DNA of 32,535 nucleotides from a virus. The stretch spans positions 1 through 32,535 of the IMG/VR virus record IMGVR_UViG_3300032323_003300; one strand, 5' to 3'. Position numbers and translations under genes: made by a program. The notes below the pieces were generated by a model that worked only from the letters and a program-made list of their open reading frames with translations, was not told the DNA's origin and searched no databases. This document shows positions 5,809-21,609 of the stretch, piece after piece (positions within the stretch are counted from its first letter, which is position 1; every line of letters starts with the position of its first letter).

Positions 5809-7257
5809 ATGAAAGATAAATTCGGTTATTTGCCTCCTGAGCAGAGGAAGAAAATCATGCTCATTTGTGATGACATTCGAGTACATTCAGGAATTGCTAC
5901 TGTTGCTCGAGAAATCGTACTTCACACATCACACCATTTTAATTGGGTAAATATAGCAGGAGCTATTCAACATCCCGAAAAAGGTAAAAAATTAGATCTA
6001 TCTGAGGATACTAATAAACAAGCAGGAATAAATGATTCTAGTGTATCTTTATATCCTGTTGATGGTTATGGTGATCCAACATTGATAAGACAACTCATTC
6101 AAATAGAACAACCTGATGCCATAATGTTGATTACTGATCCTCGTTATTTTGTTTGGTTATTTGCTATTGAAAATGAAATTCGTAAACACATTCCTATTAC
6201 TTACTTAAATATTTGGGACGATTATCCTGCTCCTTTATATAATAAACCTTATTATGAAGCATGTGACTTATTAATGGGAATTTCTAAACAAACAGTAAAT
6301 ATTAATAAAATAGTTTTAGGAGATAAAGCTAATAGTAAACTTATTAAGTATGTTCCTCATGGATTAAATGATACAATATTCAAACCTTTTGATAAAAATA
6401 GTGAAGAATATGCTAGTATGTTATCAATGAAAAAGAAAATATTTGGTAAATTTCAACCTGAATTTATTGTTTTCTTTAATTCTAGAAACATCCGCCGTAA
6501 ACAAATTCCAGATGCTTTAATGTCTTTTAGATTATTTTTAGATTCTTTACCTAAAGAACAAGCTAAAAAATGTGCTCTAATGCTTCATACAGAACAAGTT
6601 AGCGAACACGGAACAGACTTACCTGCTGTAATTGATTTGCTTTTTGGAGAAGATTATAAAAATAATGTATTCTTTACAAATTTAAGAGCTAATACATATG
6701 AAATGGCTGCTCTTTATAACATGTCTGATTGTCAAATTTTATTAACATCTAATGAAGGATGGGGATTAAGTTTAACAGAAGCAATGTTATGTGGTTTACC
6801 AATTATTGCTAACGTAACAGGCGGTATGCAAGATCAAATGCGTTTTGAATTTGAAGATGGTACTTGGATTGATTTTGATGAAAATTTTCCATCAAACCAT
6901 AGAGGCACAATTAAAAAACATGGAAAATGGGCATTCCCAGTTTATCCAACATCTCGTTCTATTGTAGGTTCTCCTCCAACACCTTATATCTTTGATGATA
7001 GATGTGAACCAGAAGATGCTACTAAATGTATTCTTGAAATTTATAATATGAGTAAAGAAGAACGTAAAGAAAGAGGTTTAGCAGGTAGAGAATGGGCTGT
7101 AAGTGAAGAAGCTGGATTTACATCTGAACATCAGGCAAACAGAGTAATTGAATGTTTTGATGAATTATTTGAAACTTGGAAACCAAGAGAAAAATTTGAA
7201 TTTATTAATGCTACAAATTACCCAATAAGAACCTTAAAACATAAATTAATTTATTAA
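5809..7257 (+). CDS. GT-B glycosyltransferase, GT4-like
   Basis: A 482-residue protein with a Rossmann-type N-terminal half beginning KKIMLICDDIRVHSGIATV and a C-terminal donor-binding half. The EX7E motif is clear: Glu316-GWGLSLT-Glu324, followed by AMLCGLPIIAN. This is typical of retaining GT4-type enzymes that transfer a sugar from a nucleotide donor. The C-terminal tail beyond the motif is long. No signal peptide or membrane segment is seen, so it is probably cytoplasmic. It opens the sugar island and is followed after one base by a second GT-B gene. Donor and acceptor cannot be read. Confidence 0.9.
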   Translation: MKDKFGYLPPEQRKKIMLICDDIRVHSGIATVAREIVLHTSHHFNWVNIAGAIQHPEKGKKLDLSEDTNKQAGINDSSVSLYPVDGYGDPTLIRQLIQIEQPDAIMLITDPRYFVWLFAIENEIRKHIPITYLNIWDDYPAPLYNKPYYEACDLLMGISKQTVNINKIVLGDKANSKLIKYVPHGLNDTIFKPFDKNSEEYASMLSMKKKIFGKFQPEFIVFFNSRNIRRKQIPDALMSFRLFLDSLPKEQAKKCALMLHTEQVSEHGTDLPAVIDLLFGEDYKNNVFFTNLRANTYEMAALYNMSDCQILLTSNEGWGLSLTEAMLCGLPIIANVTGGMQDQMRFEFEDGTWIDFDENFPSNHRGTIKKHGKWAFPVYPTSRSIVGSPPTPYIFDDRCEPEDATKCILEIYNMSKEERKERGLAGREWAVSEEAGFTSEHQANRVIECFDELFETWKPREKFEFINATNYPIRTLKHKLIY

Positions 7258-7258
7258 A

Positions 7259-8578
7259 ATGAATAAACCGTTATTTATAATTAGTTGCCCTATTGACACT
7301 TATAGTGGTTATGGAGCTCGTTCTCGTGATTTAGTTAAATCAATTATTGAATTAGATAAATACAACGTTAAAATTTTACCTCAACGATGGGGTGAAACAC
7401 CTTGGAATTTTATTAAAGATAATCCTGAATGGTTATTTTTAGAAAAACATATTTTAACAACTCCTCAATTACCTAAACAACCTGAAATTTGGGCTCAAGT
7501 AACTGTACCTAATGAATTCCAACCAATTGGAAAATATAACATTGGATTTACAGCCGGTATTGAAACAACAGTTGCTATTCCTGAGTGGATTGAAGGATGT
7601 AATAGAATGAATTTAGTTATTGTTTCTTCTAATCATGCTAAAGAAGTATTTAAAAATAGTGCTTTCCAAAAAGTAGATGAACAAACTAAACAAGTCGTAG
7701 ATGAAGTTAAATTAACAACACCTATGGAAGTTTTGTTTGAAGGAGCAGATCTAAACAAATACCTAGAAATTTCAGATAATGATCTTCCAGATAGTGATTT
7801 AGTATGTACTTTAGATGAAGTAGAAGAACAGTTTAATTACTTGTTTGTAGGTCACTGGATGCAAGGAGATCTTGGAGAAGATAGAAAAAATGTTAGTTTA
7901 TTAGTTAAAGCATTTTTAGAAGTATTTAAAAACCAAAAGAAAAAACCAGGACTAATATTAAAAACCTCAGGAGCTGGTTCATCATATTTGGATAGAGAAA
8001 CTATTCTTCATAGAATTAGACAAATTAAGGATACAGTAGAAGCTACTAGTTTACCTAACATTTATTTGTTGCACGGTGAATTTACTGATGAAGAAATGAA
8101 CCATTTATATAATCACCCTAAAGTAAAAGCAATGGTTAATTTAACTAAAGGTGAAGGTTTTGGTCGTCCATTACTTGAGTTTAGTTTAGTTAAAAAACCA
8201 ATTATTACTACAGGATGGTCAGGACATATGGACTTTTTAAACCCTGAGTTTATAGTTGCTTTAGGGGGTGAATTAAAAAATGTACATCCAAGTGCTGCTA
8301 ATCAATTCTTAATTCAAGATTCTCAATGGTTTTCTCCAGACCATGGTCAAATAGGAAATTCATTAAAAGACATGTTTGAAAACTATAAAAAATATACTGA
8401 CGGATCAAAACGTCAATCATATAGAAGTAAAACAATGTTTAGTTTTGATAAAATGAAAGAATTAATTGGCATTTACTTAGACCAATACATTCCAGAATTT
8501 CCAAAACAGGTAGAATTAAAATTACCTACTTTAAATAAAATTAGTCTTCCTAAAAAACCAATATTAACTAATGGATAA
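7259..8578 (+). CDS. GT-B glycosyltransferase, second copy
   Basis: A 439-residue protein starting PLFIISCPIDTYSGYGARSRD, a glycine-rich N-terminal loop like its upstream neighbour. The EX7E motif is Glu299-GFGRPLL-Glu307, followed by a KKPIITTGWSGHMDFL segment. It is probably a GT4-type retaining transferase and a distant relative of the 5809 gene. It lies one base after that gene and overlaps the next by 8 bases. Adjacent transferases suggest sequential addition of sugars; donor and acceptor unknown. Confidence 0.9.
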   Translation: MNKPLFIISCPIDTYSGYGARSRDLVKSIIELDKYNVKILPQRWGETPWNFIKDNPEWLFLEKHILTTPQLPKQPEIWAQVTVPNEFQPIGKYNIGFTAGIETTVAIPEWIEGCNRMNLVIVSSNHAKEVFKNSAFQKVDEQTKQVVDEVKLTTPMEVLFEGADLNKYLEISDNDLPDSDLVCTLDEVEEQFNYLFVGHWMQGDLGEDRKNVSLLVKAFLEVFKNQKKKPGLILKTSGAGSSYLDRETILHRIRQIKDTVEATSLPNIYLLHGEFTDEEMNHLYNHPKVKAMVNLTKGEGFGRPLLEFSLVKKPIITTGWSGHMDFLNPEFIVALGGELKNVHPSAANQFLIQDSQWFSPDHGQIGNSLKDMFENYKKYTDGSKRQSYRSKTMFSFDKMKELIGIYLDQYIPEFPKQVELKLPTLNKISLPKKPILTNG

Positions 8579-9062
8579 TTTAATTATATGTGATCGTTGC
8601 GGTTCAGATGCTTGTTACGTAGACGAGGTAAATCAAGATATTAAAACTCACTTCTGTTATGGATGTGGTTTTCAAACTAATACTTTAATGGTTGATGGTA
8701 GTGACTTCCTAAATGAACAAATGGAAGTCCTACCAGAACTATACAAAGATTTAATGGTTAAAGATGATAAAGGAAAAGTTTGGATGCCTTCAGCAACAAA
8801 TATTCCTCATCAAGGAATGATTTTTGCTAACGGTCCCTCAGCAGATGAATGGGGATGGAGCGCTGTTAAAGCTGTTCCCGTTAAAGAAAATGAAAAAGAA
8901 AAATACCCAATCCCAGGAAAAAAAGGACAATATTATGAATGGAGAATGGATATGAGTACAATAAAAAATTTCCCTGAACGTGCCTACATAGATGCTTTAA
9001 CGTATATTGGTGTTTTACCTGAAGACGAAGACGATGATCAGTTTAGCGATAACAGTTTGTAA
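8571..9062 (+). CDS. zinc-ribbon protein of unknown function, 163 aa
   Basis: The N-terminus holds a zinc ribbon: Cys7-x2-Cys10 and Cys29-x2-Cys32. The rest contains Trp/Pro-rich segments (HQGMIFANGPSADEWGWSAV) and an acidic end (PEDEDDDQFSD). I recognise the general look of a conserved phage protein but cannot assign a function. The gene overlaps both neighbours, the downstream one by 29 bases. Its place among glycosyltransferases does not show what it does. Confidence 0.85.
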   Translation: MDNLIICDRCGSDACYVDEVNQDIKTHFCYGCGFQTNTLMVDGSDFLNEQMEVLPELYKDLMVKDDKGKVWMPSATNIPHQGMIFANGPSADEWGWSAVKAVPVKENEKEKYPIPGKKGQYYEWRMDMSTIKNFPERAYIDALTYIGVLPEDEDDDQFSDNSL

Positions 9063-9642
9063 TGAGCATAAGGAGTTAGAGACTCTTCTTGATTATCTTC
9101 AAGAAAGAGCCTTATCCCCTGAATATGAAGTTACAATTCAGATTGATCAAGATAATCATACTGAAAAAGTATTAAGTGTAGTTCTTGATAGAGGTATTAA
9201 ACACTGGTTTTTTCCTCTTAATAAAGACTTTGCTAGCTATAAAAATGAATTATCAAAACATTGTTCAGGAGAATATATCTTCCAAATCGATGCTGATGAA
9301 TTACCATCAATAGAATTACTTAGTATGCTTCCAAGCATATTAGAAAGTAATCCTGAAGTGGATGTGTACTTAGTTCCTCGGATTAATACCGTAAGTGGTA
9401 TCACCGAGGAACATATCCTGAGATGGAATTGGAGGTATGAAAATGAGAGAGTAAATTTCCCTGATTACCAATGGAGAATTTATCGTAATGATAAATCAAT
9501 TAGATGGAAAAATAAAGTTCATGAAGTATTAGATGGTTATAAGCAATTCGCTCCACTTCCAGCTCAAGATGAATTTTGTTTATTACATCCAAAAACAATA
9601 GAAAAACAAGAAAAACAAAATAATTTTTATAATACAATATGA
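9034..9642 (+). CDS. GT-A glycosyltransferase, family 2-like
   Basis: A 202-residue protein starting MISLAITVCNEHKELETLLD, the classic GT2 first strand. The metal-binding DXD motif is Asp86-Ala-Asp88 in YIFQIDADELPS. A following RWRYE/YQWRIYRN region and KVHEVLDGY match GT2 enzymes related to the SunS/WaaE group. The family transfers a sugar with inversion. I chose ATG 9034 because it begins the first GT2 strand exactly; an in-frame start at 9007 would add nine residues with no counterpart. The coding sequence contains a strong hairpin at 9373-9412. Confidence 0.88.
   Translation: MISLAITVCNEHKELETLLDYLQERALSPEYEVTIQIDQDNHTEKVLSVVLDRGIKHWFFPLNKDFASYKNELSKHCSGEYIFQIDADELPSIELLSMLPSILESNPEVDVYLVPRINTVSGITEEHILRWNWRYENERVNFPDYQWRIYRNDKSIRWKNKVHEVLDGYKQFAPLPAQDEFCLLHPKTIEKQEKQNNFYNTI
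9373..9412 (+). repeat. intragenic inverted repeat, 9 bp plus 5 bp stem
   Basis: GTTCCTCGG (9373-9381) pairs with CCGAGGAAC (9404-9412). Inside, ATACC (9386-9390) pairs with GGTAT (9397-9401) across a GTAAGT loop. The two helices are separated by a 4/2 internal loop. The structure lies wholly inside the GT2 coding sequence, is GC-rich relative to its surroundings, and has no T tract after it. Confidence 0.6.
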
Positions 9643-10574
9643 AAAAGGTTTTAATTATAGGGGGCAACGGTTACGTTGGAAGTCGTTTAATAAACGATTA
9701 TAAAGGGCTATATGAAATGGCAGCTCTTGATAACACTCCATTAGATAAAGACATTTCATCTACATACACTTACATTTGTGATTTTAATGAGTTAGATGAG
9801 GATTTTTATTCTAATTATGATGTTATAATTTTGTTAGCAGGACACTCAAGTGTTAAAATGTGTGAGGGAAATGTTGAGCCTGCTTTTAATAATAATGTTA
9901 GAAACTTTGTTAATTTGATTAATAAGTTACAACCTCACCATAAATTTATTTATGCTAGTTCTTCTAGTGTTTATGGAAATGTTGGTAAGAAAATTGTAAC
10001 TGAAAAATACCATAATTTTGTTCCTCATAATCACTATGACGTTACTAAACATATGATTGATTTATATGCTGATAAAATTCCTTGTGAATATTATGGTTTG
10101 CGTTTTGGAACAGTAAATGGATCATCACCTGTTGTTAGAAAAGATGTTATGATTAACTCAATGACTTATAATGCTTTAAATGATGGTGAAGTAAAACTTT
10201 TTATTAAAGATATTATTCGTCCTATTTTAGGTATTAAAGACTTATCAAGAGCAATCAAAACAATTATTGATTCAGATAAAGATAATAGAGGCATATACAA
10301 TTTAGCTTCATTTAATGAAACTGCTGAAAATATAGCTTATGGTGTTAGTAAAATAACAGGCATACCAGTTAAAGAATATGAGACTGATCCTACAAATATT
10401 ACTAATGCTAAGTTACAAACAAAAAGTTATAATTTTTCTATAGATAGTTCTAAATTTATGAAAACATTTAATTTTGAGTTTGAAGAAACTATAGAAAGTA
10501 TTACAAAAAGCTTGGTAGACGACTTTAAAAATATTATATTCACAGATCGTAACCAACCAAAAGAATATGAATAA
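9639..10574 (+). CDS. NAD-dependent sugar epimerase/dehydratase (extended SDR)
   Basis: A 311-residue extended short-chain dehydrogenase. The nucleotide-binding loop is Gly8-GN-Gly11-YV-Gly14, the Ser cluster is at 107-110 (ASSSSVYG), and the catalytic pair is Tyr133-xxx-Lys137 (YDVTK). A later YGLRFGTVNG segment is typical of NDP-sugar epimerases. It would use NAD(P) to oxidise and epimerise, dehydrate or reduce a nucleotide sugar; the exact reaction is not readable. ATGA overlap with the GT2 gene upstream and an 8-base overlap with the methyltransferase downstream place it in one operon. Confidence 0.9.
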   Translation: MKKVLIIGGNGYVGSRLINDYKGLYEMAALDNTPLDKDISSTYTYICDFNELDEDFYSNYDVIILLAGHSSVKMCEGNVEPAFNNNVRNFVNLINKLQPHHKFIYASSSSVYGNVGKKIVTEKYHNFVPHNHYDVTKHMIDLYADKIPCEYYGLRFGTVNGSSPVVRKDVMINSMTYNALNDGEVKLFIKDIIRPILGIKDLSRAIKTIIDSDKDNRGIYNLASFNETAENIAYGVSKITGIPVKEYETDPTNITNAKLQTKSYNFSIDSSKFMKTFNFEFEETIESITKSLVDDFKNIIFTDRNQPKEYE

Positions 10575-11793
10575 TGAATTCCAAATAACCCACATTGCTA
10601 ATACAGAATGTTTAGCTTGTGGTAATGATGATCTGAGAACTATTTTGGATTTAAGTGATCAACCTTTAGCAAATAACTATCATAGTGGCCAAAAACAAGA
10701 AACATATCCATTAAAATTAAACTTATGTTCCCATTGTCAGCATTTACAGTTAAGTCATACTGTTAATCCTGATATTATGTTTAAGAATTATCTTTATGTT
10801 AGTGGTACTTCTCAAACATTAAAAGATTATTTTGATGAATTTGCTGCTAAAACTTTAGAATATATTTCTAATGCAGAAACTATTTTGGATATTGCTTGTA
10901 ATGATGCTACTCAGTTAGACTCATATAAAAAATTAGGCATCCAAACATTTGGAATAGATCCAGCAGAAAACTTATATAAAGACTCTGTAACCAAAGGACA
11001 TAATATTGTTTGTGATTATTTTAATACTGAAACAATAAGTGCTTTTGGTGGTAAATCATTTGATATTATTACTGCTCAAAACGTATTTGCTCATAATCGT
11101 TATACTGTAGATTTTTTACATGCTTGTAAAGAAATAATGCACGATAAATCCATTTTGTTTATTCAAACATCACAAGCAAATATGGTAATTAATAATGAAT
11201 TTGATACTATTTACCATGAACATTTATCTTTCTTTAATACTAAATCAATGAAAACTTTAGTTGAAAGATGTGGATTGGTATTAGGTGATGTATTTAAAAC
11301 GGATATACATGGTACTAGTTATGTTTTTGTTATTACTAAAACTGATTTTTTAGATAGAACTGGTACTCAAGAAATGTTAGAATTTGAAGACGAAAAAGGA
11401 TTATATAATATTTTAACTTATCCTGATTATGCTTCAAATTGTTATAAAACAACTTTTGAATTAAAGGATCTTCTTGAAAATTATAAACAAAAAGGATATA
11501 AATTGATAGGTTATGGTGCTGCTGCTAAAGGTAATACTTTATTAAATTTTGGTAAAATTAATTTAGATTACATTATTGATGACAATCCATTAAAACAAAA
11601 CCTATTAACACCAGGTATGGATATTCCCATCTATAGTTCAGAAGAATTATTAAAATTATCTAATAGTGATAAAGTTATTTTCATTCCTTTAGCTTGGAAC
11701 TTTTTTAAGGAAATTAAAACAAGAATTGAAGCTAAAAGAAAGAATGAAAACGACTTGTTTGTTAAATATTTTCCAACATTACAAGTTATATGA
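10567..11793 (+). CDS. SAM-dependent NDP-sugar C-methyltransferase-like protein
   Basis: A 408-residue protein with the three-part layout of sugar C-methyltransferases such as TylC3 and NovU: an N-terminal zinc site (Cys15, Cys18, Cys54, Cys57), a central SAM-binding domain (TILDIACNDATQL replaces the usual LDIGCGxG), and a C-terminal domain with GYGAAAKGNTLLNFG near residues 315-330 and IIDDNPLKQ after it. Family members methylate a carbon, often C3, of a 4-keto deoxysugar nucleotide. The presence of 4-keto-sugar-forming enzymes downstream fits. Substrate and methylation position are inferred. Confidence 0.9.
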   Translation: MNNEFQITHIANTECLACGNDDLRTILDLSDQPLANNYHSGQKQETYPLKLNLCSHCQHLQLSHTVNPDIMFKNYLYVSGTSQTLKDYFDEFAAKTLEYISNAETILDIACNDATQLDSYKKLGIQTFGIDPAENLYKDSVTKGHNIVCDYFNTETISAFGGKSFDIITAQNVFAHNRYTVDFLHACKEIMHDKSILFIQTSQANMVINNEFDTIYHEHLSFFNTKSMKTLVERCGLVLGDVFKTDIHGTSYVFVITKTDFLDRTGTQEMLEFEDEKGLYNILTYPDYASNCYKTTFELKDLLENYKQKGYKLIGYGAAAKGNTLLNFGKINLDYIIDDNPLKQNLLTPGMDIPIYSSEELLKLSNSDKVIFIPLAWNFFKEIKTRIEAKRKNENDLFVKYFPTLQVI

Positions 11794-12707
11794 AAGTAAA
11801 AATTTCTTATCACATTATGCCTTATGAAATAGACTACGCTCTATTATCATATATCCAACTTAAAAAATCCCAATATTATCTACCAGATGATGTTGAAATA
11901 GAAATAGACACTGTAATGAACATGTCTGACTATTTAATTGATTGGGATAAAACTATATTGCCTAAAGAATTTTTTAAAACAAAATTCAATGATTTAAATG
12001 TTTTATTGAAAGATTATAAAGTTAACCCTAAAATATATGAAGGTAATGAATGTTATGGTCTTTTAGATATGCAACGAGATTCATATTGTGGAGCTGATTA
12101 TTATATCAACATTACTCCAGATATGTACTTTAGTGAACATTTATTAGCTCTAATGTTAGAATCAGCTAAATTAGTTAAAAACAAATACTTTGTAATTACC
12201 CCTGAAATTCATAAAATGTGGGATTGGTCTTGGGATGAAATTACAAATGAAAGGTATATGTCTGTTCCTTATGCTGATTGGAATGCTACAGATGTATTTG
12301 ACATTAGACATAATATGAAAATGGATAATGTTGATCCTTATTTAGAACCTACACAACGTAGTAAATGGGCTTGGTGGTTAGATTTATACAATAGAGAATT
12401 TTATGAAGATTTTGCCCCTGTTCAAGATGATTGGTATGGTTATGGACCTTGGGATTGGTGGTCATTAATGTTAACTGAATACGCTAAATCTAAAGGAGCC
12501 GATTTTCAGGAATACGTTTTAAGAGGTCAAACAATTTTTGAATATCCTATAGGTTCATTAAAAGGTAAAGGATTTGTTTCATACTATAAAGATTTTATGC
12601 ATATGAAAGGAAATGCTCCTCAACAAAGACAACGATTTGAGGCAAATATGAACTTATATTTGGAAAGAGGTATTCAACATTTACAAAATAAAGGAATTAT
12701 TAAATGA
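11790..12707 (+). CDS. unknown protein, possibly a GT-A-like glycosyltransferase
   Basis: A 305-residue protein with no certain family. ADYYINITPDMYFSEHLLAL is followed by NKYFVITPEI, resembling the centre of GT-A transferases, where a strand ends at a short acidic motif; but no clean DXD is visible. The C-terminal half is rich in Trp and Tyr (WSWDEI, DDWYGYGPWDWW), as in carbohydrate-binding surfaces. ATGA overlaps tie it to the methyltransferase and to the fucosyltransferase-like gene. A sugar-related role is inferred from position. Confidence 0.8.
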   Translation: MKVKISYHIMPYEIDYALLSYIQLKKSQYYLPDDVEIEIDTVMNMSDYLIDWDKTILPKEFFKTKFNDLNVLLKDYKVNPKIYEGNECYGLLDMQRDSYCGADYYINITPDMYFSEHLLALMLESAKLVKNKYFVITPEIHKMWDWSWDEITNERYMSVPYADWNATDVFDIRHNMKMDNVDPYLEPTQRSKWAWWLDLYNREFYEDFAPVQDDWYGYGPWDWWSLMLTEYAKSKGADFQEYVLRGQTIFEYPIGSLKGKGFVSYYKDFMHMKGNAPQQRQRFEANMNLYLERGIQHLQNKGIIK

Positions 12708-13561
12708 AAATATTATCCAACTTTAGAAGTTTAGATGATCCTTTATTAAGTATTTTAAATACAAAATTTGGAGACAAACCATTTACTTTTTTTAATGATT
12801 ATATTCCTAAATCTATAGAAGAATTACAATATAATCCTTATAACTTTCTTTTATTACATGAACCAGATGAATTCTTTGGAATGCATACTTGGGTAAAAAA
12901 TAATCATAATTATTTTACTGCTATTTTAACATGGAATGAAGAATTATTAAATACTATTCCTAATGCTGTATTATTTACTCATAATTCTAGATCTACTAGT
13001 GATGAATATGTTAATTCATTTCGTGATGTAATTAATAAAACATTTGAAGTTAGTTTTTTAGCAGGTGCTAAAACATTAGTTGAAGGTCATAGATTTAGAC
13101 AAGAAATTTACAAAATAGGAGATCAAATTACTATTCCTAAAAAATGGTTTCATACCTTATCTGATTTTGATGCTGATGATTTTGCTAAAGGAGGAATAGG
13201 AAGACCAGGAGAATCTTGGGAAAGTAAAAAGATATGCTTTAATGAACCTATGTTTCATGTAGCAGTAGAAAATGTAAAACATAATAATTGGTATACTGAA
13301 AAAATAGGTGAAGCATTATGTACTAAAACAGTACCAATATATTGGGGAGCTCCTAATATCGGAGAATTTTATGATGAAAGAGGTATTATAACTTTTAATA
13401 CCAAAGAAGAGTTAATTGATATTGTAAATAATTTAACTCCCGAATTATATTATGAAATGAAACCTTACATAGATTATAATTATGAATTAGCTATTGTAGG
13501 ACATTTACCTTGTAAATTAGATGAATTTTTCACTCAGTTTTGTATATTAAATAGTTTATGA
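12704..13561 (+). CDS. GT10 (alpha-1,3-fucosyltransferase)-like glycosyltransferase
   Basis: A 285-residue protein whose second half matches the GT10 signature: FHVAVENVKHNNWYTEK at about 184-200, then TVPIYWGAPNIGEFYDERGI. In the family the Glu of the VEN motif and the TEK lysine bind the GDP moiety of GDP-fucose. Enzymes of this kind can also use GDP-colitose. The donor type agrees with the GDP-mannose 4,6-dehydratase gene in this island. The first half, where the acceptor would bind, is not recognisable. No transmembrane anchor is seen. Which sugar is transferred, and to what, is inferred only in part. Confidence 0.85.
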   Translation: MKILSNFRSLDDPLLSILNTKFGDKPFTFFNDYIPKSIEELQYNPYNFLLLHEPDEFFGMHTWVKNNHNYFTAILTWNEELLNTIPNAVLFTHNSRSTSDEYVNSFRDVINKTFEVSFLAGAKTLVEGHRFRQEIYKIGDQITIPKKWFHTLSDFDADDFAKGGIGRPGESWESKKICFNEPMFHVAVENVKHNNWYTEKIGEALCTKTVPIYWGAPNIGEFYDERGIITFNTKEELIDIVNNLTPELYYEMKPYIDYNYELAIVGHLPCKLDEFFTQFCILNSL

Positions 13562-14055: not shown

Positions 14056-14087
14056 CTTGGAAATACAAATTACTTTTATTACATTTA
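14056..14087 (+). promoter_or_regulatory. Bacteroidota-type promoter dividing the sugar island
   Basis: CTTG (14056-14059), a 20 bp spacer and TACATTTA (14080-14087) fill the 38-base gap between the RmlC-like gene and the E1 alpha-like gene. The spacing is the same as at the other promoters here. The ATG at 14094 begins only six bases after the -7 box, so the transcript would be almost leaderless. Confidence 0.6.
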
Positions 14088-14093
14088 CTTAAT

Positions 14094-14720
14094 ATGAATA
14101 TTCCTCAACATTATCAAAAAGTAAGAGATGTTAAGATTACTCCTGAGGAACTTATAGCTTTTGAAGACAGAGTAAAAAATGCTTATGAATCAGCTCAAGT
14201 TAAAGGACCAGTACATCTCTCTAAAAACAACGAACAACAATTAATAGAATTATTCCAATACATCCATCCAGGTGATTGGGTATTTTCAGCTTGGAGAAAC
14301 CACTATCATGCTTTATTGCATGGAGTTGATTCAGAAAAGTTATTTGAATGGATTTGTGAAGGTAGAAGTATGGGAACAAATAATGTTGGTCCTAATTTTT
14401 ATGCTTCATCTATCGTAGGAGGTATTATACCAATTGCTTTAGGAGCTGCTATGGGTCTTAAACGTAAAAATTCACCAAGACGTGTTTGGTGTTTTATTGG
14501 AGATATGACTATGGAAACCGGTTTATTTTGGGAAGCATATAAGTTTTCACAAAATTTTAATATTCCTCTTCAGTTTGTAGTTGAAGATAATAACTTAAGT
14601 GTTCATACTCCTACAGATATTGCTTGGGGTAAGCGAATGGAAGCTCCAGAAAATGTAATTTATTATTCTTACAAAATGGAATATCCACATCATGGTACAG
14701 GTAAATGGGTTAATTTTTAA
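14094..14720 (+). CDS. thiamine-diphosphate enzyme, E1 alpha-like subunit
   Basis: A 208-residue protein corresponding to the thiamine-diphosphate-binding half of 2-oxoacid dehydrogenase E1 alpha or transketolase. It has SAWRNHYHALLHG (65-77) and the cofactor motif Gly136-Asp137 to Asn166-Asn167 (GDM-x27-NN), with a Met in place of the third Gly. It is much shorter than normal E1 alpha (about 330 or more). The E1 beta-like partner starts two bases after its stop. In this setting the pair may transfer a two-carbon unit to a sugar rather than oxidise a 2-oxoacid, since no E2 or E3 gene is present. This is inference. Confidence 0.85.
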   Translation: MNIPQHYQKVRDVKITPEELIAFEDRVKNAYESAQVKGPVHLSKNNEQQLIELFQYIHPGDWVFSAWRNHYHALLHGVDSEKLFEWICEGRSMGTNNVGPNFYASSIVGGIIPIALGAAMGLKRKNSPRRVWCFIGDMTMETGLFWEAYKFSQNFNIPLQFVVEDNNLSVHTPTDIAWGKRMEAPENVIYYSYKMEYPHHGTGKWVNF

Positions 14721-14722
14721 TT

Positions 14723-15253
14723 ATGAGATACAAAGACGAATTAGACGCAGCAATGGAATGGTTAGGTACCAAACCAAATACAGTTTTTATGGGCCAAGCA
14801 ATTGGTTTTAGTGGTCATGCTATTTCAAATACAATGGCTAAGGTTCCTCAAGACAAACGAGTTGAATTACCTGTATTTGAAGAATTGCAAATGGGAATAG
14901 CTACAGGTATGGCTTTAGAAGGATGGGTACCTGTTACTTGTTATCCTAGATTTGATTTTTTTATTTTAGGTTTAAATCAATTAGTAAATCACTTAGATAA
15001 AATGCAAGACATGTCTAAGGGAGATATGAAACCTAAGGTTATTATCAGAGTAGCAGTTGGTTCTAAAGTACCTTTTAGTGCTGGGCCTCAACATACCCAA
15101 AACCATACAGAAGCAATGAGACAAATGTTAACTGAGGTTAATGTTGTTGAATTAACAGAACCAGAACAAATTTTTGATGCATTTTGTGATGCTTACAACA
15201 GTGATAAATCAACTTTAATTATTGAACATAGCGAATATTATGGAAGCAAATAG
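14723..15253 (+). CDS. thiamine-diphosphate enzyme, E1 beta-like subunit without C-terminal domain
   Basis: A 176-residue protein equal to the pyrimidine-binding domain of E1 beta/transketolase. ELPVFEELQMGIATGMALEG (48-67) carries the Glu (53 or 54) that activates thiamine, followed by the PVTCYPRFDFFILGLNQLVN segment. The usual transketolase C-terminal domain is absent, so alpha and beta together amount to a bare catalytic core. It overlaps the next gene by 14 bases. Adjacency to a sugar 3-dehydratase suggests a branched-sugar reaction, as in yersiniose synthesis, where a thiamine enzyme adds two carbons to C4; the homology there is only functional. Confidence 0.85.
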   Translation: MRYKDELDAAMEWLGTKPNTVFMGQAIGFSGHAISNTMAKVPQDKRVELPVFEELQMGIATGMALEGWVPVTCYPRFDFFILGLNQLVNHLDKMQDMSKGDMKPKVIIRVAVGSKVPFSAGPQHTQNHTEAMRQMLTEVNVVELTEPEQIFDAFCDAYNSDKSTLIIEHSEYYGSK

Positions 15254-16412
15254 TTTTAATTGGTCTTTAATAAATGATAACGTAAATGAAACAGATAGAA
15301 AAGTATTATCTGATTTTATTTTAAGTGGCGAACGATTAACTAATGGACCTAAAGTAAAAGAATTTGAAAAACTATGGTCTGAATGGTTAGGAATAAAACA
15401 TTCAGTAATGGTTAATTCAGGTGCCTCAGCAAATTATATTTCAATTGCTATGGTTAAAGAATTAAAAGGTATAGGTGAAATAATTGTTCCTCCACTAGGA
15501 TGGGTTTCTGATTTATCTTCAGTAGCTCAATTAGGAATGACTCCTGTAATCGTTGATATTGATATGAGTAGTTTAGCTATTACTGCTGAAAATATTAGAC
15601 GTGCTATTACTTCTGAAACAAAAGCTATTGTATTAGTTCATACTTTAGGATTTAATGGTTTAACAGATGAAATTTTGTCTATTGCTAAAGAACATGATTT
15701 GTTATTAATTGAGGATTGTTGTGAATCTCACGGTGCTACATTTAAAGATAAAAAAGTAGGTACATATGGTGATATTTCATTATTTTCATTTTATTTTGGA
15801 CATCACATTACTACAGTTGAAGGTGGAGTTGTTTGTGTAAATAATGATAAATTACATGATTTAGCTAAATTATTTCGTTCACATGGTATGACTAGAGAAG
15901 CATCTCAAGAACTACAAAAATCATACCAAGAAAAATATCCTGCATTGAATCCATTGTTTACTTTTGCTGTAGCAGGATTTAATATGAGAAGTACAGAAAT
16001 TAATGCTGTATTAGGTATTGAACAAATGAAACGTTTAGATTATAATATTAAAAAACGTACTGAAAATTTAAATACTTGGTTGAGTTCACTTAATGGAAGT
16101 AAATATTTCCTAAGCTTTCCAGTAAATGGAAGTAGTAACTTTGCTTTACCTTTAGTATTACAATCAGCTTATAGAGATAAATTATCTGAAGTATGTAAAA
16201 TTTTAGAAGCAGAAAAAGTAGAATATAGATTAGGTACTGCAGGTGGAGGTAATCAAGCATTACAACCTTATTTAAATAAATTTCCTCATAGAGTAGAAGG
16301 TAAATTACCTGTTGTTAACTATATTCACCATTATGCTTTATATATTGGTAATCATCCAGAATTGACTTCTACTCAAATTATTAATCTTTGTTCAGAATTA
16401 AATAAAATATAA
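15240..16412 (+). CDS. PLP-dependent NDP-4-keto-6-deoxysugar 3-dehydratase, ColD/RfbH-like
   Basis: A 390-residue DegT/DnrJ/EryC1-family protein. In aminotransferases of the family a Lys in SFxxxKxxxxGEGG binds PLP. Here the motif reads SFYFGHHITTVEGG, with His188 and His189, matching RfbH and ColD, which remove the C3 hydroxyl from 4-keto-6-deoxy sugars. The length is close to ColD (388 aa). Other landmarks are VNSGASANY, LIEDCCESHGAT and GFNMRSTEINAVLG. I chose ATG 15240 over an in-frame TTG at 15222. With the GDP-mannose 4,6-dehydratase downstream this suggests GDP-3,6-dideoxyhexose formation. An RfbH-like Fe-S motif was not seen, so ColD is the closer model. Confidence 0.9.
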   Translation: MEANSFNWSLINDNVNETDRKVLSDFILSGERLTNGPKVKEFEKLWSEWLGIKHSVMVNSGASANYISIAMVKELKGIGEIIVPPLGWVSDLSSVAQLGMTPVIVDIDMSSLAITAENIRRAITSETKAIVLVHTLGFNGLTDEILSIAKEHDLLLIEDCCESHGATFKDKKVGTYGDISLFSFYFGHHITTVEGGVVCVNNDKLHDLAKLFRSHGMTREASQELQKSYQEKYPALNPLFTFAVAGFNMRSTEINAVLGIEQMKRLDYNIKKRTENLNTWLSSLNGSKYFLSFPVNGSSNFALPLVLQSAYRDKLSEVCKILEAEKVEYRLGTAGGGNQALQPYLNKFPHRVEGKLPVVNYIHHYALYIGNHPELTSTQIINLCSELNKI

Positions 16413-16413
16413 A

Positions 16414-17385
16414 ATGTTTAAAAATCAAAAAGTTTTAGTAACTGGTGGAGGGGGAATGATTGGCCGCTCACTAGTTAAGTTTTTGCTTGAAAAAGAAGCA
16501 ATAGTTACAATAGCTGATTTAACAGTACCATCTGATTTACCTAATAATGTTAACTTTATTAAAGTAGATTTACGTTACTTTGACCAGTGTGAAAACATTT
16601 GTAACGGAATGGATTACGTGTTTAATTTAGTAGGTATTAAAGGTTCACCTAAAATGTGTGCTGAACAACCAGCTGATTTTATGGTTCCAATGCTTCAATT
16701 CAATACCAATATGATGGAAGCTGCTCGTCGAGCAAATGTAAAATGGTATCTTTATACTAGTTCAGTTGGTGTTTATGCTCCAGCTGAAGTATTTGTTGAA
16801 GATTCTGTTTGGTCAACTGTTCCATCCCCTAATGATAGATTTGCTGGTTGGGCAAAACGTATGGGAGAATTACAAGCAGAAGCATATTCAATTCAATATG
16901 GTTGGGATAAAGTATCTATTGTAAGACCAGCTAATGTTTATGGTGCTTATGATAATTTTAATCCGGCTAATGCTATGGTAGTACCTTCATTAATTAGAAA
17001 AGCTCAAGAAAATGATATACTTGAGGTTTGGGGTGATGGTTCAACTATTAGAGATTTCATTCATGCTGATGATGTTGCTTTAGGAATGTTATTTGCTGTT
17101 GAAAACCAAGTTACAAAACCAATTAATTTAGGTTCAGGTAAAGGTTATTCAATTAAAGAAGTAGTTGATATGGTAGTTAAACATTCAGGTAAAGATTTAG
17201 AAGTAAAATGGTTAACAGATAAACCAGGTGGTGATGCTATTAGATTATTTGATATGACTAGAGCTAAATCATATGGTTTTGATATTTCTGTTTCATTAGA
17301 TGAAGGAATTAAACAAACTACAGAATGGTTTTTAAATAATAAAGAAATTTTAGATAAACGTTACAACGCATTTGTAGATCACTAA
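16414..17385 (+). CDS. NAD-dependent sugar epimerase/reductase (extended SDR) lacking the usual catalytic Tyr
   Basis: A 323-residue extended SDR. Cofactor loop Gly11-GG-Gly14-MI-Gly17, Ser motif in LYTSSVGVYA, and a Lys at 148 in DRFAGWAKRMGELQAEAY. The YxxxK tyrosine expected at 144 is Ala. IVRPANVYGAYDNF and WGDGSTIRDFIHADDV are typical of GDP-fucose synthase and UDP-glucose epimerase relatives. Its C-terminal part resembles the gene at 18068 (shared HSGKDLEV). It starts one base after the dehydratase stop and ends by TAATG at the next gene. It could reduce or epimerise the 4-keto sugar, but the missing Tyr makes activity uncertain. Confidence 0.88.
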   Translation: MFKNQKVLVTGGGGMIGRSLVKFLLEKEAIVTIADLTVPSDLPNNVNFIKVDLRYFDQCENICNGMDYVFNLVGIKGSPKMCAEQPADFMVPMLQFNTNMMEAARRANVKWYLYTSSVGVYAPAEVFVEDSVWSTVPSPNDRFAGWAKRMGELQAEAYSIQYGWDKVSIVRPANVYGAYDNFNPANAMVVPSLIRKAQENDILEVWGDGSTIRDFIHADDVALGMLFAVENQVTKPINLGSGKGYSIKEVVDMVVKHSGKDLEVKWLTDKPGGDAIRLFDMTRAKSYGFDISVSLDEGIKQTTEWFLNNKEILDKRYNAFVDH

Positions 17386-18071
17386 TGGGAAAAATATTAG
17401 TAACAGGAATCGGAAGTGGGTTAGGTAAATATCTTTTTGAAAATTTACCTAACTCATTAGGTTTAAGTAGAGATAATTTTAATCTTATTAAAGATGAAGA
17501 TATTGATACTATAATCCATTGTGCTTTTAATAAAGAAAATGTAATAACAAATTACAAAAAATACTTAGATGATAATATATTTTTAACTCAACGTTTAAAA
17601 AACATATATTGTAATAAATTTGTTTATATATCTACAGTAGATGTTTATCAAGAAAATCCTACAATGTATGCTCATTTTAAAAGATTTTCAGAAACACTAC
17701 TAAATAAAAATGATTTAATATTAAGATGTCCTATGATGTTAGGTTCAACTATGAAACCTAATCATGCTACTAAATTAAAGGATAATATTGAATCACTAGG
17801 ACTTTCTGGGGACTCTCAATTTAATTATATTTTAATGAGTGATTTACTAGAATTTTTTATTAGTGAAGATTACAAACAGTATAAAGGAATAATTGATTTT
17901 GTATCAAATGATTTAGTTAAATTAGAAGATGTTAAACAATATTTTAATTCATCAACAAAACTAGGTGAATATGTTTATCAAAATAACTTGGATTTTCAAA
18001 ATCCTATATTTAAATTAAACGAGAAATATAATACATCTTCTTTAGAAAAAATAAAACAATACTTTAAATGA
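17385..18071 (+). CDS. short SDR-type nucleotide-sugar reductase, RmlD-like
   Basis: A compact 228-residue Rossmann protein. The glycine-rich loop is at residues 8-14 (GIGSGLG), the Ser/Thr site is YISTVDVY, and the catalytic pair is Tyr95-xxx-Lys99 (YAHFK). It is shorter than typical RmlD (about 290-300), mainly at the substrate end. It probably reduces the 4-keto group of a deoxysugar nucleotide using NAD(P)H, which would finish a pathway begun by the dehydratases around it. Single-base overlap upstream and ATGA overlap downstream. Substrate is inferred from context. Confidence 0.85.
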   Translation: MGKILVTGIGSGLGKYLFENLPNSLGLSRDNFNLIKDEDIDTIIHCAFNKENVITNYKKYLDDNIFLTQRLKNIYCNKFVYISTVDVYQENPTMYAHFKRFSETLLNKNDLILRCPMMLGSTMKPNHATKLKDNIESLGLSGDSQFNYILMSDLLEFFISEDYKQYKGIIDFVSNDLVKLEDVKQYFNSSTKLGEYVYQNNLDFQNPIFKLNEKYNTSSLEKIKQYFK

Positions 18072-19018
18072 AAAAAATATTAATTTGTGGAGCAACAGGT
18101 TTCATAGGTAGAAATTTATTAGATTACTTCTACCAAAAAGATAATTATACTATCCGAGCAGTACATTTTAATCGTCCTGCTATTGAGGGATATGATGGAG
18201 TTGAGTGGGTTAAAGCAGATTTACGTAATCCCGAAACAGTAAAACAAGTATTACAAGACATAGATATTGTTTTACAATTTGCAGCTACAACATCAGGGGC
18301 TAAAGATATTATGACTCGTCCTTATATTCATGTTACTGACAATGCTGTAATGAATAGTTTGTTGTTGCGTGAATGTTATGAGCAGAGTATCGAACATTTT
18401 GTATTCCCTAGTTGTACAGTAATGTATCAACCATCATCTTGTGCCTTAGCAGAATGTGATTTTAATGGAGATGAGGAATTATTCCCAACGTATTTTGGTG
18501 TAGGTAATACTAAAATTTACATTGAAAAAATGTGTGAATTTTTCTCTCGTTTAGGTAGAACTAAACATACAGTAATGAGACATTCAAATATGTATGGACC
18601 TTACGACAAATATGATCTAGAACGTTCTCATATGTTTGGAGCTACTATTACAAAAGTTATGACTTCTACTGATGGTAAAATTAATGTTTGGGGAACTGGA
18701 GAAGAAGCACGTGATTTATTATATGTTGAAGACTTAGTTAAATTTGTAGATGCTGCTATTGAAAATCAAACAACCCCTTATGAATTATTTAATGTGGGTG
18801 TTGGTAAAGCAGTACAAGTTAAAGATGTAGTTAACAAAATTATCACTCATTCAGGTAAAGATTTAGAAGTGGTTCATGATTTATCAAAACCAACTATTCC
18901 AACATCCCTGTTTTTAGATTGTACTAAAGCAAAAGAAACATTAGGTTGGGAAGCAGAAACAGATTTAGATACAGGTATTATTAAAACTTTAAATTGGTAT
19001 AAAGAAAATTATGGTTAA
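18068..19018 (+). CDS. GDP-fucose synthase-like SDR with altered catalytic motif
   Basis: A 316-residue extended SDR. Cofactor loop Gly8-AT-Gly11-FI-Gly14, FVFPSCTVMY in the serine position, and MRHSNMYGPYDKYDLERSHM, which is close to the GDP-L-fucose synthase substrate loop. Those enzymes epimerise C3/C5 and reduce C4 of GDP-4-keto-6-deoxymannose. The active-site YxxxK reads GVGNTK, with Val145 four residues before Lys149; the nearest Tyr is 142. It shares HSGKDLEV and overall layout with the 16414 protein, so they look like paralogues. It overlaps the GDP-mannose dehydratase gene by 8 bases. Confidence 0.87.
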   Translation: MKKILICGATGFIGRNLLDYFYQKDNYTIRAVHFNRPAIEGYDGVEWVKADLRNPETVKQVLQDIDIVLQFAATTSGAKDIMTRPYIHVTDNAVMNSLLLRECYEQSIEHFVFPSCTVMYQPSSCALAECDFNGDEELFPTYFGVGNTKIYIEKMCEFFSRLGRTKHTVMRHSNMYGPYDKYDLERSHMFGATITKVMTSTDGKINVWGTGEEARDLLYVEDLVKFVDAAIENQTTPYELFNVGVGKAVQVKDVVNKIITHSGKDLEVVHDLSKPTIPTSLFLDCTKAKETLGWEAETDLDTGIIKTLNWYKENYG

Positions 19019-20021
19019 TGCTTTTATTACCGGTATAACCGGAATGGTAGGTTCTCATTTAACAGATTTCCTACTTAAAAACACAGATTGGAAAATTTAT
19101 GGTTTAGCTAGATGGACAGATGCTTTAGATAATCTAGAACATTTAACCGAAGAAATTAATAAAAAAGATCGAATTGAAATTATTTATGGTGATTTAAATG
19201 ATTTAGCATCACTTATTACTGCTGTAGATAAATCAAAACCAAATTATGTATTTCATTTAGCAGCTCAGTCATATCCACAAACTAGTTTTGATGCACCTAT
19301 AGAAACGCTTCAAACTAATATATTGGGAACCGCCAATTTATTAGAGGCATTGCGTAAATCACAATATAAAAACGCTATAACGCATGTTTGTGCATCGAGT
19401 GAGGTATTTGGTCGAGTACCTAAAGAAAAATTACCAATTGATGAAGAATGTACATTTCATCCTGCTTCACCTTATGCTATTTCAAAAGTAGGAACAGATT
19501 TAGTAGGTCGTTATTATGCTGAGGCATATGGAATGACAATTATGACTACTAGAATGTTTACTCATACAGGTCCTCGTAGAGGTGATGTATTCTCAGAATC
19601 AACATTTGCAAAACAAATAGCAATGATTGAAGCTGGATTACAAGAACCTAAAATTTATGTAGGTAATTTAGAGTCATTAAGAACCTATGCTGATGTTAGA
19701 GATGCTGTTAAAGCTTATTACATATTAGTTACTCATAATCCCCAAGCAGGTGAATATTATAATATTGGTGGTACTTATACTTGTAAAATTGCTGATATGC
19801 TTAATTACTTAATTAATCAATCAACAGTAAATAATATTGAAATTATAACTGATCCTGAACGTTTAAGACCCATTGATGCTGATTTACAAATCCCTAATTG
19901 TGATAAATTCAAAGCACATACAGGATGGGCTCCAGAATATACATTTGAGCAAACAATGAATGATTTACTTCAGTATTGGAGAGATAGAGTTAACTCAGGA
20001 CGTAAATTTTTAAGACGATGA
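19011..20021 (+). CDS. gmd: GDP-mannose 4,6-dehydratase
   Basis: A 336-residue extended SDR. Motifs: Gly8-IT-Gly11-MV-Gly14; VFHLAAQSYPQTSFDAPIET; CASSEVFG with Ser130-Glu131; Tyr155-xxx-Lys159 (YAISK); and FTHTGPRRGDVF, characteristic of the GDP-mannose/GDP-6-deoxy-4-keto sugar group. The later SLRTYADVRD segment also fits. The enzyme converts GDP-mannose to GDP-4-keto-6-deoxymannose with bound NADP, the entry to GDP-fucose, GDP-rhamnose, GDP-perosamine and GDP-colitose. It would supply the His188 dehydratase and the reductases nearby. A related 4-reductase (RMD) is the main alternative; the Glu after the active-site Ser favours dehydratase. Confidence 0.88.
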   Translation: MVNAFITGITGMVGSHLTDFLLKNTDWKIYGLARWTDALDNLEHLTEEINKKDRIEIIYGDLNDLASLITAVDKSKPNYVFHLAAQSYPQTSFDAPIETLQTNILGTANLLEALRKSQYKNAITHVCASSEVFGRVPKEKLPIDEECTFHPASPYAISKVGTDLVGRYYAEAYGMTIMTTRMFTHTGPRRGDVFSESTFAKQIAMIEAGLQEPKIYVGNLESLRTYADVRDAVKAYYILVTHNPQAGEYYNIGGTYTCKIADMLNYLINQSTVNNIEIITDPERLRPIDADLQIPNCDKFKAHTGWAPEYTFEQTMNDLLQYWRDRVNSGRKFLRR

Positions 20022-20758
20022 GAATTTTAGTAATCGGAGATAGCTGTATAGATATTTTTAGATATGGTAAAGTGGATAGGTTAGCCCCTGAGGCACCTAT
20101 CCCTATTATTGTACCTGAAAAAGAAACATCCAATCCAGGCATGGCTGGTAATGTGGTTGAAAATTTAAAATCATTAGGAGCTAAAGTAGATTTTGTTACT
20201 AATCAAAAAGAAATTAGAAAAATAAGATACGTTTGCTCAAAATACAATCATTTATTATTACGAGTAGATGAAAATGATCAATGTGAACATATTTTAGATA
20301 GTTATGATTTAGAACATCTTCATTGGGAAGACTATGATGCTATTGTAATAAGTGATTATTGTAAAGGATTTTTAGATGCAATTGATATTGAATTTATTTC
20401 TAAAAAACATCCATTAGTTTTTCTAGATAGTAAGAAAATTTTAGATACTTGGGCTGATGATGTTACATTCATTAAGATTAATTATAATGAATATTTACGT
20501 AACTTGGATGTATTATCAAATTATACATCCCTTAGAAATAAAACAATTGTTACTAGAGGAAAGTATGGATGTGATTATCAAGGAAAAAATTTCCCAACTA
20601 AAGATGTTCCTGTAAAAGATGTATCTGGAGCAGGTGATACTTTTTTAGCGGGTCTAGTAAAATCTTATATTGAATCAAAAAATATAAACACAGCAATTAA
20701 GTTTGCTCAACAATGTACAACAATAGTAATTCAAAAATCAGGAGTATCAACAGTATGA
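20018..20758 (+). CDS. PfkB-family sugar kinase, HldE/RfaE kinase-domain-like
   Basis: A 246-residue PfkB/ribokinase-fold protein. It opens RILVIGDSCIDIFRYGKVDR, followed by LAPEAPIPI at 22-30, the segment typical of the heptose-7-phosphate kinase domain of HldE. The C-terminal catalytic motif is VSGAGDTF with base Asp207. HldE kinase domains are about 320 residues, so this is a reduced version, and no nucleotidyltransferase domain follows. It probably phosphorylates a sugar or sugar phosphate on the anomeric carbon using ATP. Heptose is suggested by the signature only. It ends in an ATGA overlap with the next gene. Confidence 0.85.
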   Translation: MRILVIGDSCIDIFRYGKVDRLAPEAPIPIIVPEKETSNPGMAGNVVENLKSLGAKVDFVTNQKEIRKIRYVCSKYNHLLLRVDENDQCEHILDSYDLEHLHWEDYDAIVISDYCKGFLDAIDIEFISKKHPLVFLDSKKILDTWADDVTFIKINYNEYLRNLDVLSNYTSLRNKTIVTRGKYGCDYQGKNFPTKDVPVKDVSGAGDTFLAGLVKSYIESKNINTAIKFAQQCTTIVIQKSGVSTV

Positions 20759-21609
20759 AAACAGCGGCTTTATTATATGTAAGAAATGATGGTTATAAAG
20801 AAGATGAACGAGTTATAGTTTGTTTATCTTCTATGTTAGAAACCTTTGATGAAGTAATTTTATTAGACTGGAATTCTCCAGAAGATAAAGGACCTTTGTT
20901 ATGGGATATTCAAGATAAATTACCTAAAACAGGAAAACTAAAACATATGGTTATTCCTCCTGAAGCAGCAAAAATGCTTACTAATTATGATCCTAATGCT
21001 CAAGCATGTACTCAAGTAATATCAACTAATTTAATGCTTAGAAGATGTGATGCTGACTGGATTGTAGCTACTACTATTGATATTATTGCTCCAAATAAAG
21101 ATAAATTTCATGAATTTTTATCTAAAGCAGACAAAAACACATTCTATACAGTTTCCAGAAGAGATTTTGAAATTGAAGAACTTGAAAAACATGGTTTTGA
21201 AAATTGGAAATCATATAGAGATATTTTAGATGAAACATCTCAAGAACGTAGATTCCCGGCTATGGTTACCCCTAATGATAGATACAGTTTAATTAATTGT
21301 TGTGGAGACTTTCAGTTAGCTCATAAAGATGTATGGAATACTATGAAGGGATTTGAAGAAAAAATGATATATGCTTGTTTTCAAGACACAAATATACAGA
21401 AAAAAGCAGTATTAAATGGGTTTGGTTTAGAAGCAATTTATGATTTGCCTTTATACCATATGTCTCATAAGGGTATGAGTAATGATGGTTCCTCCCCATC
21501 CAAACAATATTATAATGATGCTTGGGAGTGGGTAGAATGGTTTGAAGAAACTCAAAACAATGATAGTTGGGGATTTTCGGGTATAGAAATTGAACATGAA
21601 TTAATTTAA
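20755..21609 (+). CDS. GT-A-like glycosyltransferase, last gene of the sugar island
   Basis: A 284-residue protein. The N-terminal AALLYVRNDGYKEDERVIVC and FDEVILLDWNSP resemble the first strands of GT2 enzymes, the DWIVATTIDIIAP segment could provide the acidic metal site, and CCGDFQLAHKDVWNTMKGFE with the later DTNIQKKAVLNG matches the second half of galactosyltransferase-type GT-A domains. I chose ATG 20755, which overlaps the previous stop as ATGA; an in-frame start at 20713 would add fourteen residues inside the kinase gene. Donor and acceptor unknown. Confidence 0.83.
   Translation: MKTAALLYVRNDGYKEDERVIVCLSSMLETFDEVILLDWNSPEDKGPLLWDIQDKLPKTGKLKHMVIPPEAAKMLTNYDPNAQACTQVISTNLMLRRCDADWIVATTIDIIAPNKDKFHEFLSKADKNTFYTVSRRDFEIEELEKHGFENWKSYRDILDETSQERRFPAMVTPNDRYSLINCCGDFQLAHKDVWNTMKGFEEKMIYACFQDTNIQKKAVLNGFGLEAIYDLPLYHMSHKGMSNDGSSPSKQYYNDAWEWVEWFEETQNNDSWGFSGIEIEHELI

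Follow-up and report, generated by a model that had tools for sequence, protein, structure and literature searches.

Which sugar is built by the long run of sugar genes at positions 5809-21609 of the IMG/VR virus record IMGVR_UViG_3300032323_003300, and what does it decorate? The window analysed here was the entire record, 32,535 bases. We consider it fairly probable, at about 60%, that this island makes and transfers a rare C-branched deoxysugar derived from a nucleoside diphosphate (NDP)-heptose by way of a split thiamine pyrophosphate (TPP) enzyme. The original prediction had been that a phage makes its own unusual guanosine diphosphate (GDP)-sugar, starting from a GDP-mannose 4,6-dehydratase (Gmd), and attaches it to a virion, host or DNA target.

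It was found that the island comprises 17-18 genes, all on the + strand and closely packed: the junctions range from -32 to +38 nt, and six are exact 4-nt overlaps. They encode four clear glycosyltransferases and two candidates, five short-chain dehydrogenases/reductases (SDRs), a C-methyltransferase, an RmlC-type epimerase, the split TPP enzyme, a ColD-type pyridoxal phosphate (PLP) dehydratase and a heptose-type kinase. Pfam, PHROG and fold matches bore out the predicted set of about six glycosyltransferases or candidates, four or five SDRs and the accompanying sugar enzymes, as well as the one-strand layout with ATGA or near-zero junctions. The genes listed were right, but the PfkB/HldE-type kinase at 20018-20758 had been missed.

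The proposed pathway and its TPP-dependent step

Comparison gave the enzyme families, intact motifs, conserved gene order, heptose signal and TPP motifs, and from these we infer the nucleotide, the substrate order, the branch chemistry and the final structure. A heptose phosphate, activated in part by the phage HldE-type kinase, would be converted to an NDP-heptose, probably GDP-linked. The dehydratase Dmh (19011-20021) would remove water to give a 4-keto-6-deoxyheptose, the ColD-type enzyme (15222-16412) would remove the C3 hydroxyl, and the RmlC-type enzyme (13558-14055) would epimerise C5. The pair E1a (14094-14720) and E1b (14723-15253) would transfer two carbons from pyruvate or another 2-oxo acid to the C4 ketone, and one or more SDRs would reduce a ketone. 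The product would be attached by GT10 (12704-13561) and neighbouring glycosyltransferases to a glycan built by a GT4a-GT4b-GT2 head.

The ColD-type protein (Pfam DegT) had ColD itself (2gms, 176 bits) as its best PDB match, and the mutant chain 3b8x also aligned. His194 replaces the PLP lysine and is aligned with ColD His188, in agreement with the 3-deoxygenating role proposed earlier. E1a, the PP domain of a minimal E1-type TPP enzyme (208 aa; Pfam E1_dh, 54 bits), carries the TPP motif GDM...EDNN at 136, and its sequence relatives are pyruvate dehydrogenase E1 alpha subunits. E1b (176 aa; relatives mostly 176-186 aa) consists of a PYR domain only (Pfam Transket_pyr), with Glu53-Glu54 where expected; a Pfam search gave no match to a C-terminal transketolase domain in it. 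The alpha (PP) and beta (PYR) subunits of E1-type branching enzymes were present with TPP motifs, but a full-length beta subunit was not.

E1-type TPP enzymes have been assigned the addition of a C2 branch from pyruvate to deoxy-keto-sugars in antibiotic clusters (PMC12247030, PMC4802897), the latter report on the basis of genetic evidence and combinatorial biosynthesis. Like the E1-type (alpha-keto acid dehydrogenase 2) enzymes of paulomycin, avilamycin and kibdelomycin described there, the pair in the window is a two-subunit E1-like TPP enzyme in a deoxysugar cluster; unlike them, the putative branching enzyme has the PP and PYR domains alone and lies in surface-glycan clusters of phages and marine bacteria. 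Because E1-type enzymes branch keto-sugars in the antibiotic pathways, a branched nine-carbon sugar is suggested here by analogy. YerE likewise adds a two-carbon branch in the yersiniose pathway. Yersiniose A (YerE/YerF) is the model for the proposed step, a TPP-dependent two-carbon branching of a 4-keto-3,6-dideoxy NDP-sugar, although YerE belongs to the decarboxylase superfamily and acts on a cytidine diphosphate (CDP)-hexose, whereas in the window the pair is E1-type and the sugar probably a heptose.

The heptose might instead stay unbranched, with the TPP pair making or using a 2-oxo acid or ketose precursor, or some other small donor, and with plain GDP-3,6-dideoxyheptose as the product, as in Campylobacter. 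The cyanophages S-SM2 and P-TIM68 would fit such a scheme, since they carry a fused E1 homologue beside heptose-type kinase and nucleotidyltransferase genes, without Dmh or ColD. However, the E1 pair sits among 4-keto-sugar enzymes in phages and in SAR116, and E1-type enzymes of deoxysugar clusters are known as branch-adding (PMC12247030), so that we regard an unbranched product as unlikely.

A five-gene module consisting of DJ-1/PfpI, a cupin, a small HAD-like protein, a longer E1 alpha and a 303-aa E1 beta replaces E1a-E1b between RmlC and ColD in about 18-20 virus contigs (for example L016, L012, L024, L028, L040 and L052, as numbered by us). The swap of one E1 pair for another upstream of ColD fits an interchangeable tailoring step. 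Two separate observations were made in the bacterial clusters. In some, the minimal E1 pair is accompanied by another N/C pair, transketolase-like and named from the start of its sequence alone (L099:9885-11673, L100:7277-9026), and a B12-binding radical SAM protein, possibly a further tailoring step, lies near E1a-E1b in 19 of 45 loci (for example L124:4194-5717), in many of them beside ColD.

The SDRs were unusual. SDR2 (16414-17385), GDP-fucose-synthase-like by sequence comparison, and SDR4 (18068-19018) lack the tyrosine of the YxxxK motif in every virus and bacterium compared (79 and 42 relatives, respectively), with the lysine kept; SDR4 has instead a tyrosine at Lys-7 in 44/44 sequences. 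These counts cover SDR2 and SDR4, those for SDR3s (17385-18071), whose alignment to Fcl was misplaced, being unused. SDR2 and SDR4 either use another acid or catalyse something besides reduction. SDR3s retains YAHFK at 95, but is short and remote, with a weak Pfam Epimerase match (19 bits); judged by its motif, it is the best candidate for the ketone reductase.

Heptose or hexose

The enzyme predicted to be Gmd turned out to be closer to heptose dehydratases. Dmh scored 366 bits against the Campylobacter heptose dehydratase 7us5, 183 against RMD and 137 against E. coli Gmd, and it keeps the full catalytic triad (SSE at 129, YAISK at 155). It fell into one clade (SH-like approximate likelihood-ratio support, SH-aLRT, of 100) with 7us5 from C. 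jejuni, the enzyme of Synechococcus phage Bellamy and copies from SAR11, SAR116 and gammaproteobacteria, whereas the Gmd of cyanophage S-CAM7 and RMD were placed outside, in a tree where some long branches leave the deep part unsure. A true Gmd identity was rejected on the bit scores and the tree. The RmlC-type protein (Pfam RmlC) gave 152 bits to C. jejuni GDP-4-keto-heptose 3-/3,5-epimerases (7m14, 8dcl and others) versus 82 to RmlC 1dzr. The kinase, with a GAGD motif, was nearest to heptose kinases (PDB 4e84; TIGR02198, 134 bits, below the curated cut-off).

The neighbours of related genes pointed the same way. In Bellamy, an isolate, HddA-like (279 bits) and HddC-like (62 bits) genes come before the heptose-dehydratase-like gene, whose product is 74% identical to 7us5 (L158:6219-10020). 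Within about 10 kb of 45 bacterial E1a loci, HddA-like genes were found in 30, HddC-like in 18 and GmhA in 17; the HddA and HddC matches checked were below the NCBIfam curated cut-offs, yet best in family. HddA-like genes were single-copy in 19 of the 20 genomes searched, a biased test, as most of these loci were chosen knowing that HddA was nearby; the unbiased figure is 30/45. The HddA/HddC/GmhA supply cluster is present in bacterial relatives, and its HddA/HddC part in Bellamy, while the window holds only the HldE-type kinase. Incidentally, the name of the 103-aa "phosphoheptose isomerase" of S-SM2 (L005:21998-22309) is probably wrong, the match being a weak one to HAD-type phosphatases; the GmhA-like label taken from the cyanophage annotation was dropped, the protein having proved HAD-type phosphatase-like.

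Since the dehydratase and the epimerase match heptose enzymes, and an HddA-like kinase lies near 30 of the 45 bacterial TPP-pair loci, the sugar is most likely a GDP-3,6-dideoxyheptose rather than GDP-colitose, as far as homology can tell. The GDP-type deoxysugar of the original prediction remains the best reading, but most likely as a heptose and not a hexose. The proven C. jejuni route to GDP-3,6-dideoxyheptose uses a 4,6-dehydratase, a PLP 3-dehydratase, a C5-epimerase and a C4-reductase (PMC10440746). As in the HS:5/HS:11 capsule pathway (PMC10440746, PMC10680097), the window has a heptose-type 4,6-dehydratase (by homology and clade), a PLP 3-dehydratase (by homology and active-site residue), an RmlC-type epimerase and SDRs; unlike that pathway, it is phage-borne, adds the E1-type TPP pair and Tyr-less SDRs, and has an HldE-type instead of an HddA-type kinase.

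A GDP-colitose-type hexose pathway, in which GDP-mannose is dehydrated, 3-deoxygenated and reduced and the TPP enzyme branches the hexose to something like GDP-yersiniose, is improbable, and more so than an unbranched heptose. The histidine-for-lysine ColD enzyme, the Fcl-like SDR2 and the Gmd-Fcl-ColD set held by S-CAM7 would all be in keeping with it. But the dehydratase and the epimerase score far higher against heptose enzymes, the S-CAM7 Gmd stands outside the Dmh clade, the bacterial relatives sit with HddA-, HddC- and GmhA-like genes, and a heptose-type kinase lies within the island. Compared with the GDP-colitose cluster itself, the His-for-Lys 3-dehydratase was found, whereas a GDP-mannose-type 4,6-dehydratase was not; nor was a single bifunctional ColC (Fcl-like, Ser-Tyr-Lys), as SDR2 is Tyr-less in all relatives and the RmlC-type epimerase is separate.

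Several observations weigh against a branched heptose. The expected reductases SDR2 and SDR4 are without the catalytic tyrosine, E1b is without the C-terminal domain that known E1 beta subunits have, and the fused E1 homologues of S-SM2 and P-TIM68 have neither Dmh nor ColD beside them. Substrate assignments rest on homology at about 50% identity or below. Furthermore, the window kinase and the nucleotidyltransferase of its relatives are of the HldE type (adenosine diphosphate (ADP)-heptose, beta), which is an imperfect fit to a GDP-alpha-heptose, and the window has neither a nucleotidyltransferase nor an isomerase, so that the host may supply the precursor.

Phage setting and spread of the cassette

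The island is bounded upstream by an exonuclease gene (4606-5559) and downstream by a gene group ending in HNH (22483-23130). The window also encodes a clamp loader of the T4 gp44 type (phrog_168, 224 bits), a weakly matching gp62-type subunit and, beside replication genes, GroES and GroEL (424-2323); gp23 was found in 5/15 related contigs. GroES shares 47% and GroEL 62% identity with their counterparts in Flavobacterium phage vB_FspM_immuto (Immutovirus), and the order GroES-GroEL, exonuclease, GT4a-GT4b-small protein-GT2, HNH is common to both. On the strength of the clamp loader genes, GroEL and this synteny, we conclude that the island belongs to an uncultured large T4-like phage. It had been predicted to be phage-borne, and a host chromosomal island was indeed rejected on account of phage flanks syntenic with the isolate immuto. 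A possible genus-level relationship to Immutovirus would rest on 57-62% identity for GroEL, GT4a and GT4b and on the common order, over the 32.5 kb of this genome that are known. The host is probably Flavobacterium-like or another member of the Bacteroidota, by reference to immuto.

The constant head starts with GT4a (5809-7257; Pfam Glycos_transf_1, 45 bits), a family 4 glycosyltransferase 57% identical to immuto gp90 at the matching position. It continues with the GT4-like GT4b (7259-8578; 58%), which was below the Pfam cut-off and matched phrog_2170 "glycosyltransferase", a small zinc-ribbon-like protein without family match (8571-9062; 43%) and GT2 (Pfam Glycos_transf_2, 36 bits; 45%), which was taken to start at ATG 9034 (9034-9642), the listed open reading frame opening with TTG 9007. 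In immuto, the stretch from GT2 to HNH is occupied by WecE-type aminotransferases, a methyltransferase, a mannosyltransferase and other sugar genes, with no heptose cassette. As immuto holds other sugar genes in this slot, a constant head with an exchangeable sugar cassette is indicated.

Behind the head lies a variable module. SDR1 (9639-10574), a nucleotide-sugar epimerase/dehydrogenase (best PDB match 6vo6) with a canonical YxxxK (Y133-K137), has relatives in few related loci, and the sugar C-methyltransferase (10567-11793; Methyltransf_13/23/14) has close full-length relatives (88% and 74%) only in two contigs, L012 and L024. Pfam gave SDR calls at 9639, 16414, 17385 (weak), 18068 and 19011. 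U1 (11790-12707), without a family, is probably a GT-A-fold glycosyltransferase, nameable weakly by fold alone: its AlphaFold2 model (predicted local distance difference test, pLDDT, 91) gave weak Foldseek matches to GT-A enzymes, with a template modelling (TM) score of about 0.44. The last gene, U2 (20755-21609), likewise without a family and nameable by fold alone, is a candidate GT-A-type glycosyltransferase, the predicted structure (pLDDT 75) matching chondroitin polymerase and SpsA at a TM of about 0.5. The fucosyltransferase-like GT10 (Pfam Glyco_transf_10, 26 bits), of a GDP-sugar family, was found in 51/88 viral loci, often adjoining RmlC.

These 88 loci came from a scan of IMG/VR, 80 with the ColD-type query and 8 more with E1a, on contigs that are partly shared. 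The order RmlC-E1a-E1b-ColD-SDR2-SDR3s-SDR4-Dmh-kinase was kept across many contigs, mostly at 60-95% identity, with varying glycosyltransferases around it. Such a recurrence of the core order in many other virus contigs is not due to chance. In L058 and L061 the operon reads GT10, a 132-aa protein, RmlC, E1a, E1b, ColD, SDR2, SDR3s, SDR4, Dmh, kinase and an HldE-type nucleotidyltransferase. A family of 130-140 aa without a confident Pfam match, absent from the window, was seen near the cassette in 67/88 viral loci, in the GT10-RmlC gap or behind Dmh (for example L058:495-893, L043:5746-6156). The claim that the set is uncommonly complete for a phage was only partly right, as similar cassettes occur in many uncultured T4-like phages and cyanophages.

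A genome scan with E1a gave the 45 bacterial loci, mostly from SAR11, but also from SAR116, SAR86, other gammaproteobacteria and Chloroflexi, and one from a metagenome-assembled genome titled archaeal. A SAR116 genome has RmlC-E1a-E1b-ColD-SDR2-SDR3s-SDR4-Dmh in the phage order within a bacterial polysaccharide cluster, without the HldE-type kinase and followed by HddC- and HddA-like genes. In the E1a tree, the window was placed within a set of 26 sequences, all of them viral (SH-aLRT 99), which speaks for long residence of the cassette in phages, and the tree suggests several exchanges between viruses and bacteria. It may be that a hitherto undescribed pathway to a C-branched, nine-carbon deoxyheptose is common to T4-like phages and abundant marine bacteria (SAR11, SAR116, gammaproteobacteria, Chloroflexi), with an unusually small two-domain E1-type TPP enzyme and two SDRs whose tyrosine is lost or moved and which perhaps perform a non-reductive reaction; for this wider proposal we would put the chances a little below even.

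Target and meaning of the sugar

The most likely role of the sugar is virion protein glycosylation or a change of the host surface glycan. Of the targets named in the original prediction, DNA is the unlikely one: although several soluble glycosyltransferases are present and T4-like phages can glucosylate hydroxymethylcytosine, a sugar for glycosylated hypermodified bases is highly improbable, because the window yielded no hydroxymethylase, the canonical thymidylate synthase motif LGLPFNIASY is present in the ThyA homologue of three relatives (in the window this gene is truncated by the record end), and GT4, GT2 and GT10 are polysaccharide-type families. The idea that the phage itself exports a lipid-linked polysaccharide was rejected, as there was no obvious membrane protein among the island proteins, and a PglK-like flippase was found in 0/88 viral loci versus 13/45 bacterial loci. 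Being soluble, the glycosyltransferases could work in the cytoplasm on virion proteins, a route that chloroviruses follow with GDP-sugar genes of their own, or they could lengthen lipid-linked glycans of the host. For pelagimyophages, the host O-chain was favoured as target (PMC7029224). Outside the island, the window encodes a GDSL-type esterase/acylhydrolase (29293-29964) with an N-terminal hydrophobic stretch; its substrates could be surface glycans.

Sugar islands in T4-like phages are already known. The lipopolysaccharide clusters of cyanophages P-SSM2, S-SSM7 and S-SM2 (PMC3037559) and those of pelagimyophages (PMC7029224) are likewise large sugar-nucleotide and glycosyltransferase islands with heptose-type kinase genes, and S-SM2 also has its fused E1 homologue, but without Dmh, ColD and RmlC beside it. 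The portions of these accounts compared with the window do not describe its cassette, and its pathway appears as a new variant. In the open-access literature, no description was found of phage heptose or branched heptose pathways, nor of the combination of a heptose 4,6-dehydratase, a ColD-type dehydratase, a minimal E1 pair and Tyr-less SDRs. An earlier report (PMC3037559) did not settle whether cyanophage sugar islands are functional or "stuffer DNA"; here, many phage contigs retain a coherent pathway in a fixed order, its motifs mostly intact and one of its steps exchanged as a unit, which argues for function. The Tyr-less SDR pair poses a concrete question of enzymology. If the proposed pathway is true, a branched heptose would join the known glycan alphabet, and many genes of aquatic phages annotated as Gmd-like or "transketolase" would have a plain explanation.

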